From NCBI GenBank assembly GCA_023953695.1, contig JAMLJG010000001.1, positions 62,001-126,000 of the forward strand: a stretch of 64,000 nt of DNA, given 5' to 3'. The DNA is from Kiritimatiellia bacterium. Its GTDB lineage: Bacteria > Verrucomicrobiota > Kiritimatiellia > CAIVKH01. Under the pieces are notes generated by a model. It made no database searches and was not told where the DNA came from. It saw only the letters and a program-made list of their open reading frames with translations. Below, in pieces: positions 3,822 to 50,284 of this stretch (within the stretch, counting starts at the first letter, position 1; the number at the start of each line of letters is the position of its first letter). A program made the translations under genes and the position numbers.

Positions 3822-4263
3822 GATTGCGCTCTCCTGGTCGTTCTTCTTTGGCTTGGAGTGGCGAATCGGAAGTGGGGGCGGGCGCTGCGGCCGGCTTGGG
3901 TTTGGGCTGCGGCGGCGTGAAGGGAACGGGGACGACATCACTCCGCTTCATTTGCATTGGGGTGGTGTAGTCGTTTTCCATCGCGAGGCACTTTCGCGGG
4001 CAGACATCCACGCAGTGGTTGCACTGAATGCAGCGCAGGCGATCAATGGCCCAGGTCTTGCCGGTGCGGTCCACGGCTATGGCGCCGGTGGGGCATCGGC
4101 GATCGCAAATCAGGCAGAGGTTGCATTTGTCTTCTTCGATGGCGATGTGGCCGCGGGTTGCGAGATAGACGGGTTTGCGCGCGGCGGGATAGGGCACCGT
4201 TGCTGGCTTTCGGAGCAGGCTCCCCAGCGCAACTCGGGTCATGGTTAGCGGTTTTTGTTTCAT
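3790..4263 (-). CDS. echF: Ech hydrogenase subunit F, 2x[4Fe-4S] ferredoxin-like (NuoI-like)
   Basis: This is a polyferredoxin subunit expected to accept electrons from reduced ferredoxin and pass them to the EchC/EchE core. Two complete four-cysteine motifs are visible (Cys47/50/53/57 and Cys78/81/84/88), as in NuoI and EchF. The last 50 or so residues form a Pro/Ala/Lys-rich low-complexity tail that overlaps hoxE and looks dispensable. The ATG at 4263 overlaps the echE stop (ATGA). Length is 157 residues, slightly longer than typical EchF because of the tail. Confidence 0.9.
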   Translation of the reverse strand: MKQKPLTMTRVALGSLLRKPATVPYPAARKPVYLATRGHIAIEEDKCNLCLICDRRCPTGAIAVDRTGKTWAIDRLRCIQCNHCVDVCPRKCLAMENDYTTPMQMKRSDVVPVPFTPPQPKPKPAAAPAPTSDSPLQAKEERPGERNHEPPDQSSAD

Positions 4264-5339
4264 CGTTCGGCGCAACTGATGCAGGGGTCAATGGTCAGGA
4301 CGATCACGGGCACATCGGCGAGTTGGCAGCCTTGCAGCATTTTCAACAGCGGTGGGATGTTCGCAAACGTGGGCGTGCGGACGCGGAAGCGATCGAGGAA
4401 TTTGGTGCCGTTTCCTTTGACGTAATAGATGACTTCACCGCGCGGCTGTTCGAGGCGGGCGAAGAACTCGCCTTTCGGCGCGCCGGTGATTTTCATATCC
4501 ACCGGTCCCGGTGGCACGTTGGGAAGCACGTGGCGCAGGATGTCGAAGGATTGATAAATCTCGCGAATTCGGACCATCGTGCGGCCCCAGCAGTCGCCGC
4601 TTTCTTCGACGATGGGCTCCACGGCGATTTTGTCATAGGCCGCATAGCCATCGAGGCGGGAATCCTGTGCGACGCCGCTGGCGCGGAGCATGGGGCCGAC
4701 TGCGCCGAGGTCGTAGGCGTCGTTCCTGGAGAGCAGGCCGACGCCGCAGAGGCGTTGGCGCACGGAGAAGTCGTCGCGGAACACGTTGGTGATGGCGCGC
4801 AGTTCGTCTTCGACTGCGTTGAGCTGGGCGGGGATGCGTGCGAGCAGGTCGTCCGGAACATCGCGGCGGCAACCGCCGACTTTCGCCGCGCCGAAAATGA
4901 CGCGGCCGCCCGAGGTTTCTTCGATCACGTCGAGGATCCCCTCGCGCAGTCGCCAGCAGGCCATGAAAAGGTTTTCAAAGCCAAATGCATCGGCCAGTAG
5001 GCCCAGCCACATCATGTGGCTATGGATGCGCGAGAGTTCGCTCCACATCGTGCGCAGCCATTTGGCGCGCTCGGGGATTTCGAGGCCCATGACGGTTTCG
5101 ACGGCTTGGCAATAGCCCATGCCGTGGATGTAGCTGCAAATCCCGCAGATGCGTTCGGCGATGAAGGTGAACTCGGTGAAGTCCTTTTTCTCGACGAGTT
5201 TTTCCAAGCCGCGATGGATGAAGCCGAACGAGGGGATGGCCTCGACGACATGTTCGTCTTCAATCACCAAATCGAGGTGAATCGGCTCGGGCAGGACGGG
5301 GTGCTGGGGCCCGAAGGGGATGACCGTTCTATTCGCCAT
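4260..5339 (-). CDS. echE: Ech-type membrane-bound [NiFe]-hydrogenase large subunit (NuoD-like)
   Basis: This is the catalytic subunit of a group 4 energy-conserving hydrogenase, which reduces protons with ferredoxin electrons while the membrane arm moves ions. Both nickel-binding pairs are intact: RICGIC (Cys65, Cys68) and the C-terminal DPCISC (Cys353, Cys356). This separates it from NuoD of respiratory complex I, which has lost them. The protein ends three residues after the last Cys, with no obvious long maturation peptide, as in several Ech enzymes. Length is 359 residues. It is preceded by a 67-bp gap that holds a double palindrome, the only sizeable gap within the ech genes. Confidence 0.94.
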   Translation of the reverse strand: MANRTVIPFGPQHPVLPEPIHLDLVIEDEHVVEAIPSFGFIHRGLEKLVEKKDFTEFTFIAERICGICSYIHGMGYCQAVETVMGLEIPERAKWLRTMWSELSRIHSHMMWLGLLADAFGFENLFMACWRLREGILDVIEETSGGRVIFGAAKVGGCRRDVPDDLLARIPAQLNAVEDELRAITNVFRDDFSVRQRLCGVGLLSRNDAYDLGAVGPMLRASGVAQDSRLDGYAAYDKIAVEPIVEESGDCWGRTMVRIREIYQSFDILRHVLPNVPPGPVDMKITGAPKGEFFARLEQPRGEVIYYVKGNGTKFLDRFRVRTPTFANIPPLLKMLQGCQLADVPVIVLTIDPCISCAER

Positions 5340-5356: not shown

Positions 5357-5403
5357 TTCCAACGACTGGAACTTTGCATGTGCTTGGCTTCCAAGGATTG
5401 GAA
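5357..5403. repeat. Double palindrome TTCCAA-N3-TTGGAA, two copies 32 bp apart
   Basis: The first copy, 5357-5371, reads TTCCAACGACTGGAA (one mismatch in the right half). The second, 5389-5403, reads TTCCAAGGATTGGAA and is perfect. The two start exactly 32 bp apart, about three DNA helical turns. The pair fills the gap between echE and echD, starting 3 bases beyond the echD stop. The same two-copy arrangement with the same 32-bp period is found at 49577-49623. It could act as DNA (dimer binding sites) or as two small RNA hairpins; I cannot tell which. Confidence 0.75.
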
Positions 5404-5406
5404 AAA

Positions 5407-5814
5407 TTATGTCGGCTCCTTTTGGGGTTGCGGTTTGTTGGGTTTGGGGGCGGGCGCCGCGCACACCGGCGGGACGGCCATGGGCGCGGGGATCGCGGTT
5501 CGGAAAAAGTGGCCTTGATAGTCCACGTTCATGCCGGTGAAGGTGATGCCGTAGAGGTCGTGGATTTCGTTTTCGTAGGCGAAGGAGCCTCCGTAGATGG
5601 AGCTGATGCTGGGGAGCGCAACGCGGCTGTCGGGGATGCAGATGCGGAGGTGTTCGATGGTGTGAGGGCGCGAGAAGCTGTAGAGGAGTTCAAAGTGCTG
5701 CAGGCGCGAGCAGCAGATTTGGACAAGGCGCGAGCCGGCGGCGCGCTGGGCGTTCGCGGCTTCGAGGAGGCGCTCGGGCGCGATTTCGCTGTAGGTTTGC
5801 GCGGGCGCGTTCAT
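5407..5814 (-). CDS. echD: Ech hydrogenase subunit D (NuoC-like)
   Basis: This 135-residue protein corresponds to the NuoC/30-kDa subunit that scaffolds the hydrophilic arm. The family signature is visible around residues 75-100, with the segment YENEIHDLYGI followed by G-M and an F-R motif, as in the complex I 30-kDa domain. The C-terminal 25 residues are Pro/Ala/Lys-rich, similar in style to the EchF tail. The ATG at 5814 overlaps the echC stop by 4 bp. Function follows from family membership and from its fixed place in the echABCDEF order. Confidence 0.87.
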   Translation of the reverse strand: MNAPAQTYSEIAPERLLEAANAQRAAGSRLVQICCSRLQHFELLYSFSRPHTIEHLRICIPDSRVALPSISSIYGGSFAYENEIHDLYGITFTGMNVDYQGHFFRTAIPAPMAVPPVCAAPAPKPNKPQPQKEPT

Positions 5815-46165: not shown

Positions 46166-49126
46166 CTACGAGCAGCCCATTGAGTTGCCGCAGTTGAAGC
46201 ATTTGTAGCACGCGCCATTGCGGACGGTTATGGAGCCGCAACTGTCGCAGGCTGGCGCATCCTCTTGAAAGTGCTGAAACTGCTCATCCACCCGCTGTGG
46301 GGCCGATGGCGGCTCAACGGCTGCGCTGGCTGGCGTCGCCGCCAGAACTGCGGACGCGGCGCTGCTGGTCGCCGCGGCGGCCGAACTGTGCTGAGCGTTG
46401 CCCGCTTCGAGCGTCAACGGTTTGGAGGGGGAGGGCTCTTTGTATCCGTCGAGAAACGTCGAGCCGAACCAGCGGAAAATATAGTCCGGCAGCGACTTGG
46501 CGATCGGGATGTCGGGGTTTTTGGTGAAGCCGCTCGGTTCGAATCGCGTATGTGCGAATTTTTCGACCAGCGACTTCACGGGAACGCCGTATTGGAGGCA
46601 CATGGAAATGGCGGTGCCGAAGGCATCCATCAGACCACCCACGGTGCTGCCTTCCTTGGCCATGGTGATGAACAACTCGCCCGGCGAGGAATCGTCATAG
46701 AGGCCGACCGTGAGATAACCCTCGTGTCCCGCAATGTCGAATTTGTGCGTAACCGAGCGGCGTGTGCTCGGCATACGGCGGCGAAGCGGGCGGATTTTCG
46801 ATCCGTTGCCATTGCTGCCGGGCTCGGCGGCTGGGGCGGGTTTGGCGACGGCCTCTTCAGTCTTTGCTTCCTTCTTGCCGGTGCTGACCGGTTGGCTGCG
46901 CTTGCAGCCATCGCGATAGATGGCCAGCGCCTTGAGGCCCAACTTCCAGCCTTCGATATAGGTCTGCATGATTTCGTCTGCCGTGGCCTCGTTGGGCATG
47001 TTCACGGTTTTGGAAATGGCGCCGGAGAGATGCGGCTGAACGGCGGCCATCATTTTGACGTGCGCGCGATAGGCGATGAAGCGCTTTCCATTGCGCGGCT
47101 TGAAGGCGCAGTCGAAAACGGGAAGATGCTCTTCCTTGAGGCCGGGCGCGCCCTCAATCGTGTCCTTCTCATCAATGTATTTGATGATGCTTTCAATGGT
47201 TTTCGAATCGTATCCGAGTTTGTGCAGGGATTGGGCCACGGTGCGGTTGACAATCTTGAGCATGCCGCCGCCTGCGAGCAGTTTGTATTTGACGAGCGCG
47301 ATATCCGGCTCGACGCCGGTGGTGTCGCAATCCATCAGGAAGCCGATCGTGCCGGTGGGGGCCAGAACCGTGACCTGCGCGTTGCGATAGCCAAAGCGGC
47401 GGCCGAGATCGGCGGCCTCGTCGGCGCAGCGCGTCGCCGCTTCGCGCAAATACGCGGGGCAGGAGGCATCAATTGCTCGCGCGGCTTCGCGGTGCAGCTC
47501 GATCACTTCGAGCATGGGCTCGCGGTTGCGCGCATAGCCTTCGAACGGCTTCAATTTTTCCGCGATGCGCGCCGATTGCGCGTAAGCGTGGCAGTGCATG
47601 ATGGCGGTGAGCGAGGCGGCCAGCGAGCGGCCTTCTTCGCTGTCGTAGGGAAGGCCTTGCGACATCAGGAGGCTGCCGAGGTTGGCGTAGCCGAGGCCGA
47701 GCGTGCGGTAGATGTGGCTGTTGCGCGCAATCTTGTTCGTCGGATAGCTCGCGTTGTCCACGATGATGTCCTGCGCGGTGATGAAGATTTCGACCGCCGC
47801 CTTGAAGCGCTCCACGTCGAACTGATCCCCGTTCATAAACTTCATCAGGTTGAGCGACGCGAGGTTGCACGCTGTATCGTCGAGGAACATATATTCGCTG
47901 CACGGATTGCTCGAGTTGATCGGGCCATCGTTTTTGCAGGTGTGCCAGCGCTGAATGGTGTCCTCGAACTGCATTCCAGGATCGCCGCAGATCCACGTGC
48001 CCTCCGAGATGTTTTTGAGGAGCTGACGCGCCTTATACGTAGGACCGGCTTTGCGAAGATCGGTGACCCAGTGTGTGGTCCAATCGCGGTTGTCCAAGGC
48101 CGCCTGCATAAAATCGTCCGTAGCGCGCACGCTCAGATTTTCGTTTTGGAAGGCGACGGACCCATAGGCCTCGCCATTGAAGTTGCCGTCGTAGCCCTGT
48201 TCGATCAGCGCCCAGGCCTTCTTTTCCTCGTTCGATTTGGCGTCAATGAACTCCTTGATGTCCGGGTGCCAGACTTTCAGAGTGTTCATCTTCGCCGCGC
48301 GCCGCGTTTTGCCGCCCGACTTTACCACACTGGCCACCGCGTCATAGACGCGGAGGAAGGAGAGGGGCCCGCTGGGGCGTCCGCCGCCAGAAAGTTTTTC
48401 GCGCGTGGAGCGGAGTGTCGAGAGGTCTGTGCCGCTGCCGCTGCCATATTTGAAAAGCATCGCCTCGGAGCGCGCGAGGTCCATGATGTCTTCCATTGTG
48501 TCTTCCACGCGCTGAATGAAGCAGGCGGAGCACTGCGGATATTCATATTGCGAAGGCGCGGTCTCCACCTGGCCCGTCGTGCGGTTGTAGAATGCGTTGC
48601 CCGGTCCGGCGTCCTTGCCCACGCCATACTGCTGATAGAGCCCGCAGTTAAACCACACCGGCGAATTGAACGCGCCAAATTGATTCACGCAGAGAAACGC
48701 CAGCTCGTCGTGGAACACCTCTGCATCTGCCTTCGATGCGAAGTAGCCATCGCGCAGTCCCCAATCGGCGATCGTGCGGGCCACGCGGTGGATGAGTTGG
48801 CGCACGGAGAACTCGCGTTCGGATTTCGTCACATCGCCATAAAAGTATTTCGAGGCCACCACATTCGTTGCCAACATGGACCAGCTTGCCGGCACCTCCA
48901 CATTGTTCTGCTCGAAGAGAACCTTGCCCTTGTCGTCCGTGATGGCGGCCTTGCGGCGTTCCCACTGCACTTGGTCGAATGGATTTTTGCTCGCCGTGCT
49001 GAAAACTCGCGAGATCGAGAGTCCTCCCACGTTTGCCGTGCGCCCCTTTGCGGCGCCCGGTTTGCGCCCCTTGCCGACGGCGCGCTTTGATTCCGTCCGC
49101 CCTGAAACTTCGCGATTTTCCAACAT
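46166..49126 (-). CDS. nrdJ: Vitamin B12-dependent (class II) ribonucleotide reductase
   Basis: This enzyme makes deoxyribonucleotides with adenosylcobalamin as radical source, so it works with or without oxygen. The 986 residues contain the class II core with FNSPVWFNCGL, YPQCSACFIQ, the NPCSEYMFLDDTACNLASLN active-site segment (about 410-430), LAPTGTIGFLMDCDTTG and RAHVKMMAAVQPHLSGAISKTVN. They end with a zinc-ribbon-like tail of paired cysteines (CDSCGS, CYKCFNCGN) like that of NrdJ. AGGAG lies 7 bases before the ATG at 49126, and the longer Met start at 49147 contains that site, so I prefer the shorter form. Upstream are possible NrdR boxes. Confidence 0.95.
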   Translation of the reverse strand: MLENREVSGRTESKRAVGKGRKPGAAKGRTANVGGLSISRVFSTASKNPFDQVQWERRKAAITDDKGKVLFEQNNVEVPASWSMLATNVVASKYFYGDVTKSEREFSVRQLIHRVARTIADWGLRDGYFASKADAEVFHDELAFLCVNQFGAFNSPVWFNCGLYQQYGVGKDAGPGNAFYNRTTGQVETAPSQYEYPQCSACFIQRVEDTMEDIMDLARSEAMLFKYGSGSGTDLSTLRSTREKLSGGGRPSGPLSFLRVYDAVASVVKSGGKTRRAAKMNTLKVWHPDIKEFIDAKSNEEKKAWALIEQGYDGNFNGEAYGSVAFQNENLSVRATDDFMQAALDNRDWTTHWVTDLRKAGPTYKARQLLKNISEGTWICGDPGMQFEDTIQRWHTCKNDGPINSSNPCSEYMFLDDTACNLASLNLMKFMNGDQFDVERFKAAVEIFITAQDIIVDNASYPTNKIARNSHIYRTLGLGYANLGSLLMSQGLPYDSEEGRSLAASLTAIMHCHAYAQSARIAEKLKPFEGYARNREPMLEVIELHREAARAIDASCPAYLREAATRCADEAADLGRRFGYRNAQVTVLAPTGTIGFLMDCDTTGVEPDIALVKYKLLAGGGMLKIVNRTVAQSLHKLGYDSKTIESIIKYIDEKDTIEGAPGLKEEHLPVFDCAFKPRNGKRFIAYRAHVKMMAAVQPHLSGAISKTVNMPNEATADEIMQTYIEGWKLGLKALAIYRDGCKRSQPVSTGKKEAKTEEAVAKPAPAAEPGSNGNGSKIRPLRRRMPSTRRSVTHKFDIAGHEGYLTVGLYDDSSPGELFITMAKEGSTVGGLMDAFGTAISMCLQYGVPVKSLVEKFAHTRFEPSGFTKNPDIPIAKSLPDYIFRWFGSTFLDGYKEPSPSKPLTLEAGNAQHSSAAAATSSAASAVLAATPASAAVEPPSAPQRVDEQFQHFQEDAPACDSCGSITVRNGACYKCFNCGNSMGCS

Positions 49127-49639
49127 GTGCAGGCTCCTATTCCCCATTGCAAAAAATGAATGTGCTCTAACTCTCTGTCCGTGTGTCGCTTAGGCGAAGA
49201 GTGCGAAAGGAAGTACCACAAGCTATAGGTGCACCGTAGCGATGAACAAACAAGTAGCCCCATATGTTGTGGTGGACAAGAACTTTTTAACACTTTCGTA
49301 ATCGTTTTATGGATAGCACCTTAGGAGGTCACTTTTTGAGAGAGCTTTTGCAGCAAACGGCGAAATGGAGCGCCGTGCGACGCCGCACTTGTTGAAGGTG
49401 GAATGAGTTGCGTTTGGAGTGGCGATTTCTCGATGAAAAGGCGCGGTATGAGCCGACTCGAATTGCGCCTGCCTCAATGATTTCTCCGCAGCGGAAAAAA
49501 GCGAGAGAAGGGGATATGCTGAACGGCGCCGGCGCAGCATCAGCGCGACGTGGGCGCGCTCAATCGGATCTGTGACTTCCAAGGATTGGAAGGCGCGCGA
49601 GGAGCAATTTCCAATTGTTGGAAGCGTCGCGTGGCGGTA
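49127..49639. promoter_or_regulatory. nrdJ upstream region with possible NrdR boxes
   Basis: This non-coding stretch holds the presumed nrdJ promoter. Two sites resemble the NrdR repressor consensus ACACWAYATATWGTGT: 49216-49231 (about 10 of 16 matches) and 49257-49272 read on the minus strand (about 12 of 16). Their starts are 41 bp apart, close to four helical turns. The far end carries the double palindrome described separately. No B12 riboswitch features (such as a B12-box GCCACTG) were seen, nor any gene. Confidence 0.35.
49577..49623. repeat. Double palindrome TTCCAA-N3-TTGGAA, second locus
   Basis: Copies at 49577-49591 (TTCCAAGGATTGGAA, identical to 5389-5403) and 49609-49623 (TTCCAATTGTTGGAA) start exactly 32 bp apart, as at 5357-5403. 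The pair lies 16 bp beyond the stop of the PEP-CTERM gene. Recurrence of both the motif and the spacing at two unrelated loci argues for a genomic repeat family or a bound regulator. Confidence 0.75.
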
Positions 49640-50284
49640 TCAGGTCTGATCGCTGTCAGAGGGCGCGGCCTCTTCGCCCTTTTTCTTCCGGATAATGCTG
49701 GCCTTCATCGCCAAGATCATACCGCCCACAAGCAGCAGCAAGTTTGCGGTGCCCGGTTCGGGAATGATGTAGAAGTTGTTCGTGTGGGTGGTGACGAGTT
49801 GGTTGTCCTGATCGAAGCGCACGGTGGACACGCCTGCCGTGATGCCGAGTTCGAAGATATCCGATTCGCCCCAGCAGAGCAGGCCTGTCAACGGTCCCGT
49901 CGCATCGAAGAATCGGACATAGACATTACTGATCACGGAGGAGTCGTACTGAACTGTTTCGTAGAAGATGCTTTGATAATCGGGATAGGCCGCTGGAATG
50001 GAGAATATCTGGACGATTCCGAGGATGACATCGTCTCCTGTGGTGGAATTGGCGATGTAGCCGTCGTTATACGTCTGCATCGGGTCAATGACATTGTCGG
50101 AGCTGCCGATGATGTAGACCCATGAGCCGTCTGCCAGGGGGGTGCTTCCATCGCAACCGAGGGCCGGGTCGAGAATAAACGCATCCAAATCAACTATGAC
50201 AGCACGCGCGGTGGACAGTCCGATTCCACCGAACACGAGCAATGCGGCGAAATGCCGCCTAAGCTTTTTGAATGCTGCCAACAT
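49640..50284 (-). CDS. PEP-CTERM exported protein
   Basis: This 214-residue protein has a signal peptide (about residues 1-28) and a C-terminal PEP-CTERM sorting signal: PEP at 175-177, a hydrophobic helix about 180-194 and basic RKKK about 199-202. An exosortase would cut and anchor such proteins during export, often together with polysaccharide. The middle is beta-rich with acidic loops and no recognised domain. A 12-residue acidic tail after the basic cluster is unusual, since most of these proteins end there. I use the ATG at 50284; a TTG at 50323 is possible. No exosortase gene is in this window. Confidence 0.85.
   Translation of the reverse strand: MLAAFKKLRRHFAALLVFGGIGLSTARAVIVDLDAFILDPALGCDGSTPLADGSWVYIIGSSDNVIDPMQTYNDGYIANSTTGDDVILGIVQIFSIPAAYPDYQSIFYETVQYDSSVISNVYVRFFDATGPLTGLLCWGESDIFELGITAGVSTVRFDQDNQLVTTHTNNFYIIPEPGTANLLLLVGGMILAMKASIIRKKKGEEAAPSDSDQT

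Follow-up and report, generated by a model that had tools for sequence, protein, structure and literature searches.

Paired, helically phased TTCCAA-N3-TTGGAA palindromes in one bacterial class: probable binding sites of an unidentified dimeric protein

Why should two 15-bp palindromes of the form TTCCAA-N3-TTGGAA lie side by side in the short gap between two genes of an operon, and why does the same arrangement return further along the window, that is, the whole 64,000-nucleotide stretch of DNA that we analysed? The first pair consists of site 1a (TTCCAACGACTGGAA, 5357..5371) and site 1b (TTCCAAGGATTGGAA, 5389..5403), separated by a 17-bp spacer (5372..5388), and the second of site 2a (TTCCAAGGATTGGAA, 49577..49591) and site 2b (TTCCAATTGTTGGAA, 49609..49623), again with a spacer of 17 bp (49592..49608); none of these features is assigned to a strand. 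The start-to-start spacing is exactly 32 bp in both pairs. The initial annotation had given the coordinates and spacing of the first pair correctly, but the palindrome at 5357 is imperfect because of one mismatch in an arm. It had also noticed the recurrence at 49577-49623 with one identical copy, and the letters at 5389 and 49577 are indeed the same. Its impression that the window holds just two complete pairs stands as well, no further pairs being present at ≤2 mismatches; at this tolerance the window contains 6 matches, against 1.9 expected from dinucleotide shuffles, and 1 of 100 shuffles reaches 6.

Sites in the window and in its genome

The first pair had been placed after the echD stop. 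The stop does adjoin it, and the description can be refined, since the pair fills an intra-operon gap: the NuoC/EchD-like gene (Complex1_30kDa, 5407..5814, minus strand) has its stop at 5407, 3 bp from site 1b, and the NuoD/EchE-like gene (Complex1_49kDa, 4260..5339, minus strand) starts at 5339, 17 bp from site 1a. Beside the second pair, a minus-strand gene of no known family (49640..50284) has its stop codon 16 bp from site 2b, and the next gene downstream of site 2a, 450 bp off, encodes a class II ribonucleotide reductase (46166..49126, minus strand). Searches of Pfam and NCBIfam returned no match for the product of 49640-50284, which by eye ends in a PEP-CTERM-like tail. Rfam gave no match at the sites.

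The genome to which the window belongs (2.62 Mb in 39 contigs) contains 170 exact copies of TTCCAA-N3-TTGGAA, compared with 1 for a reversed-pattern control, and 203 compared with 4 when ≤1 mismatch is allowed. A de novo palindrome scan ranks the motif first, both here and in a second genome, G079. These counts establish a true family of sites, for which the consensus in the window's genome is AC-TTCCAA-N3-TTGGAA-GT; the centre base is G or C in 166 of the 170 exact sites, site 2b being one of only 4 with an A/T centre. Neighbour distances below 200 bp, taken from 512 kb of letters, are 32 bp in 46 of 52 cases, the others being 31 bp (four), 30 bp (one) and 16 bp (one), and the 32-bp step is repeated in arrays of three or four sites. 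The sharp 32-bp peak that the initial annotation had proposed to look for is therefore present, and the data clearly contradict both of the outcomes that would have refuted it, namely spacing at random and a frequency no higher than in a control. The spacers themselves have a mean pairwise identity of only 0.33 and share nothing beyond their short edges (AC 5' of the arm, GT 3'). With genes called by our own simple hexamer-based script, 37 of 43 site clusters lie outside genes at a median distance of 28 bp from stop codons, many of them in short gaps within operons, and several pairs finish 5-7 bp ahead of a start codon, for example at rlmN and nth. We also observed that the centre triplets of a pair, read in the same orientation, resemble each other (1.88 of 3 positions, against 1.16 under permutation; L130-L169), for which local duplication, strand bias or a directional centre are possible reasons.

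Helical phasing, conservation and distribution

The strongest evidence for phasing comes from a single species, represented by G079, one closed chromosome of 3.88 Mb of which 820 kb (21%) were read and in which the consensus is WTTTTCCAA-NSN-TTGGAAAAW. At ≤2 mismatches its sites are 21-22, 30-32, 41-42, 52-53, 61-63, 73-75, 82-86, 94, 103-105, 115-117 and 124-125 bp apart, and only two pairs, at 47 and 48 bp, fall clearly off these periodic distances. Between 16 and 130 bp there are 106 pairs, against about 18 expected at random, and they give a Rayleigh peak at a period of 10.5 bp with a phase near zero (nR2=77, R=0.85). Rayleigh values assume independent pairs, which is untrue of arrays, and most of this problem is addressed by taking nearest neighbours only (n=81, nR2=58). 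Removal of related pairs leaves the result unchanged (n=101, R=0.85), as does restriction to pairs within one gene (R=0.86), whose distances are flat modulo 3, so that neither duplication nor the codon frame can be the source of the 10.5-bp period. At longer range the phasing decays: R is 0.72 at 130-250 bp and about 0.49 at 250-400 bp, and almost nothing of it is left above 400 bp. Helical phasing is thus demonstrated in this species, and the earlier suggestion that both sites of a pair lie on one face of the DNA, as for a dimer of dimers, is strongly supported. In the genus g10 (G226, G157 and G246), where few exact sites lie close together and 58 exact pairs fall at 20-50 bp, the phasing is weaker than in G079 (R=0.38, nR2=8.4): there are peaks at 31-33 and 21-23 bp and no pairs at 34-41 bp, with extra classes half a turn off at 26-29 and 47-49 bp. 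What is apparently one locus in these three genomes, judging from its similar spacers (G226:C121:16211, G157:C88:42533, G246:C122:6101), has kept its pair at spacings of 33, 33 and 32 bp, which looks like the tolerance of a 1-bp indel within helical phase. Elsewhere, arrays run at 31 or 32 bp, in some cases combined with 22 or 30 bp. Stretches of 4-7 palindromes at about 31 bp were seen in G087 (L185 7082-7263), in G160 (L190 4359-4467) and at L070 6426-6534; near-exact tandem duplications account for some of the 31-bp units in the first two of these, and duplication is thus a further route by which an array can lengthen.

Are the sites maintained? We compared orthologous loci with FR_21, at about 70-73% DNA identity, using four pairs, three of which (nuoC-nuoD, rlmN and nth) were chosen before looking and the fourth found via the motif. 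In all four the pair occupies the same gap at 32 bp, and 95 of 96 arm bases are identical, compared with 12 of 24 centre bases and 10 of 48 bases of the spacer interior, a value that is random and indicates saturation. For the first window pair, whose orthologous pair lies at L321:1763 and 1795, the spacer has likewise kept its length and not its sequence. Arms and spacing are thus under purifying selection, and the conservation of these, and not of the spacer sequence, again favours the dimer-of-dimers suggestion, because a spacing conserved across a saturated spacer calls for a two-site complex. In G265, G172 and G038 the same gaps, where they could be matched, lack the motif. Several orthologous coding positions in G079 and G003 can be aligned with no gap, and the differences there are substitutions; taken together with the conservation in FR_21, this indicates that sites are made and lost by point change and held by selection where they are present.

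Placement differs strongly between species, from intergenic pairs to intragenic singles, so that one common role is not assured. In G079, 159 of 204 site clusters are inside genes, in all three frames, and its genes contain 82 exact sites compared with 1.6 after synonymous codon shuffling, an excess of about 50-fold. The two half-sites mutate independently: at position A-2 in this genome, 65 changes affect only the left arm, 72 only the right, and 6 are complementary double changes. The dyad logic with independent half-sites is thereby established, and no RNA hairpin is under selection. Site density in G079 is roughly even overall, although the data are thin. Samples from 3.40-3.83 Mb and 0.10-0.14 Mb of contig C1 (L248-L250, L268-L270, L231, L251) have 2-8 sites per 40 kb at ≤1 mismatch, against a mean of 11, and they lie just past a switch of GC skew near 3.4 Mb. 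This is presumably the side of the terminus, and the low density there recalls the distribution of Noc sites, although it rests on thin data.

The initial annotation mentioned similar motifs in other PVC-like genomes, which is correct, although in our sample of genomes the motif is confined to one class. Of 289 genomes scanned in the phylum, 26 of the 97 members of the window's class, from 11 families, have 50-1339 exact copies, while each of the 192 genomes of other classes has ≤5, which establishes the class restriction. Class and taxon names were taken from record titles, and the named records with pairs are those of Kiritimatiellae, Lentisphaerae and Verrucomicrobia, besides assemblies of uncultured bacteria. 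The distribution is patchy even within genera, with 170 versus 2 sites in one and 1177 versus 3 in another. The possibility that the motif-poor sister G265 uses a re-specified site was rejected, as a de novo scan of 384 kb, which works in motif-rich genomes, found no substitute palindrome family there. Phage origin was also rejected, since 2.9 million viral contigs yielded just 9 stretches with the pair pattern. Where low-copy genomes retain a few sites, several of the adjoining genes have the look of defence or toxin cassettes gained by horizontal transfer, and we saw no DNA-binding gene common to these neighbourhoods. In G038, which has 5 exact sites, pairs at L200 1332-1378 and 12182-12228 bracket a stretch of about 11 kb. 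One gene in it is helicase-like and another, by eye, HARE-HTH-like, as though a motif-rich relative had donated a defence cassette together with its sites. Residual sites in G059 (L203 5391-5469) and G265 (L199 2241-2286) stand beside genes that by eye are CD-NTase-like and PIN-domain-like, suggesting acquired cargo.

A dimeric binding protein and its rivals

What kind of factor would require such sites? A dyad with independent arms, a selected spacing and a decaying helical period point to a dimeric protein whose dimers are in contact, or form bridges, on a single face of the helix. A cooperative pair of dimers should have a dyad site with independent half-sites and spacing by integral turns, and both are found, the latter more weakly in g10. 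We therefore consider it probable, though well short of settled, that a sequence-specific DNA-binding protein of the class Kiritimatiellae, as yet unidentified, occupies the palindromes as a dimer, makes dimer contacts on one face and is probably architectural. No binder has been identified, and the protein itself, the contact between dimers and the role remain inferences. Each palindrome would be bound by one symmetric dimer, and dimers on the same face would contact each other, so that neighbours at an integral number of turns are favoured, three by default and two, four, five or six elsewhere, together with short loops. The role might be folding or bridging of the nucleoid or the marking of gene boundaries. 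An architectural role appears likelier than a regulon because the genes next to the sites are unrelated to one another, and because sites occur within operons, downstream of stop codons and, in some species, for the most part in coding sequence. A wider view, which we put forward only tentatively, is that of a sequence-addressed chromatin, in which an abundant dimer reads palindromes on one face that are selected even in coding DNA and are gained and lost between sister species; folding instructions would then be written into genes by point change. We know of only a few bacteria with architectural proteins that have chromosome-wide sequence-specific sites, and of no case of helical phasing across hundreds of sites, let alone within coding sequence. 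Most members of the class have not been cultured, and we found no paper with this motif, none on sites of transcription factors or nucleoid proteins in the group and none on nucleoid proteins of the class. If the protein were found, the distance rules would offer a genome-wide in vivo readout of protein-protein contact along DNA, with a period of 10.5 and a decay length of a few hundred bp. Motif-rich and motif-free sister genomes, which the patchiness provides, form natural pairs for comparison.

Could the binder belong to a known family? A Lrp/AsnC-type regulator with TTCCAANNNTTGGAA as its target would place dimers on 15-bp palindromes two or three turns apart and wrap the DNA. The sites of such regulators are palindromes of 13-15 bp in clusters, spaced two or three helical turns, and arrays of two to four sites at 31-32 bp suit this geometry. 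We nevertheless regard this explanation as unlikely, since the centre of a Lrp site is AT-rich, in contrast to the G/C centre here, and an AsnC-type protein is present in nearly every member of the class, also in G265 with its 2 sites and in G047 and G017 with none. Presence of AsnC/Lrp as the driver was rejected: PF01037 occurs in 49 of 51 genomes regardless of the motif (presence, not protein specificity, was scored).

It may be, instead, that the motif is an iterated palindrome like HIP1, serving as a mark for methyltransferase, mismatch repair or recombination or as a DNA-uptake signal, and quickly gained and lost. Hundreds of intragenic copies in all frames, patchiness among close relatives and origin by point change all fit, the iteration within G079 genes exceeds codon usage as a HIP1-type element demands, and HIP1 is also patchy and tied to orphan methyltransferases (PMC4390886). 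However, such marks or signals have no reason to show a 10.5-bp period or fixed 32-bp pairs with unrelated spacers, the conserved spacing across a saturated spacer also calls for a two-site complex, and we find this explanation quite improbable. We give equally little credence to an ordinary global transcription factor with a regulon. Palindromic, helically phased operator pairs, several of them just before start codons such as those of rlmN and nth, are what a regulon would show, but the concentration of sites downstream of stop codons, in gaps where two genes converge and within coding sequence is not, and G172, with 151 sites genome-wide, has none at the orthologous loci. A regulon, or a binder regulating its own gene, was also sought through a recurrent neighbour gene family, and none exists across 205 clusters; this makes a regulon improbable, and our best guess is an architectural role.

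The initial annotation had offered RNA hairpins as its alternative, and extragenic palindromes of the REP/BIME kind or terminators acting in the transcript would account for the extragenic placement near stop codons in the window's genome. A single long stem can also form from the two palindromes of a pair (z about -2.7 to -4). This is very unlikely to be their function, since in G079 there is no excess of complementary double changes at the arms and no bias towards G-U, with 71 arm mutations compatible with G-U pairing and 79 incompatible, and sites are frequent in genes, in all frames. Moreover, the centres of pairs in the window's genome are less complementary than under permutation (0.57 versus 1.16), a search for a terminator-like site at the first pair found none, and a hairpin does not require an exact spacing of 32 bp. 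A mobile element, either a MITE or a RAYT-mobilised REP family, is scarcely credible despite copy numbers as uneven as 2 and 170 in one genus and the tandem 31-bp duplications in G087 and G160, because neither spacers nor flanks are related from copy to copy, the differences between orthologous sites are substitutions without gaps, and G148, with 183 sites, lacks any RAYT match while G265 has 2 sites and 10 matches; a repeat family in this sense, which the initial annotation had allowed for, can be set aside. As candidate drivers, RAYT transposases were rejected because PF01797 counts do not track the motif in 50 genomes, and MITEs or insertion elements because there is neither a conserved body nor insertion by gap.

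Comparison with known systems

How, then, do the sites of the proposed dimeric protein compare with systems already described? Like them, the targets of Lrp/AsnC proteins (archaeal Ss-LrpB and FL11, bacterial Lrp) are clustered, dimer-bound palindromes of 13-15 bp. The Ss-LrpB site is TTGCAAAATTTGCAA, with helical periodicity and a centre-to-centre spacing of two or three turns, and the family also binds away from promoters (PMC2995911, PMC4046817). These targets, however, are degenerate with an AT-rich centre, whereas our motif has a near-invariant arm, a G/C centre and hundreds of copies, is phased over many turns and has no link with the presence of an AsnC protein.

HIP1 is found inside genes too. 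It resembles the motif in being highly iterated, limited to one group, the cyanobacteria, and patchy among relatives (PMC4390886). It differs in its length of 8 bp and in its methyltransferase partners. We know of neither helical phasing nor fixed pairs of HIP1. REP/BIME elements with RAYT are, like our sites, paired intergenic palindromes often near stop codons, but the motif has no GTAG/CGTC tag, no conserved body and no correlation with RAYT, is abundant in the genes of G079 and shows dyad symmetry without RNA covariation; the extragenic position expected of REP/BIME holds for 37 of 43 clusters in the window's genome and fails in G079.

The Noc-binding sites (NBS) of Firmicutes, with half-sites TTTCC...GGAAA and about 70 copies per B. 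subtilis chromosome, are the sites of an architectural dimer. Like our motif, they are palindromic sites distributed over the whole chromosome (PMC7383237). The NBS dyad is even, though, and Noc is ParB-related and restricted to Firmicutes, whereas the dyad of our motif is odd and 15 bp long, and its TTCC and GGAA arms are seven bases apart. To our knowledge, no helical phasing of NBS has been described. NrdR binds as a dimer of dimers to a pair of palindromic boxes that are separated by about three helical turns. Its boxes, however, serve a few nrd promoters and are unrelated in sequence, while the motif described here comprises hundreds of sites with no tie to any gene.
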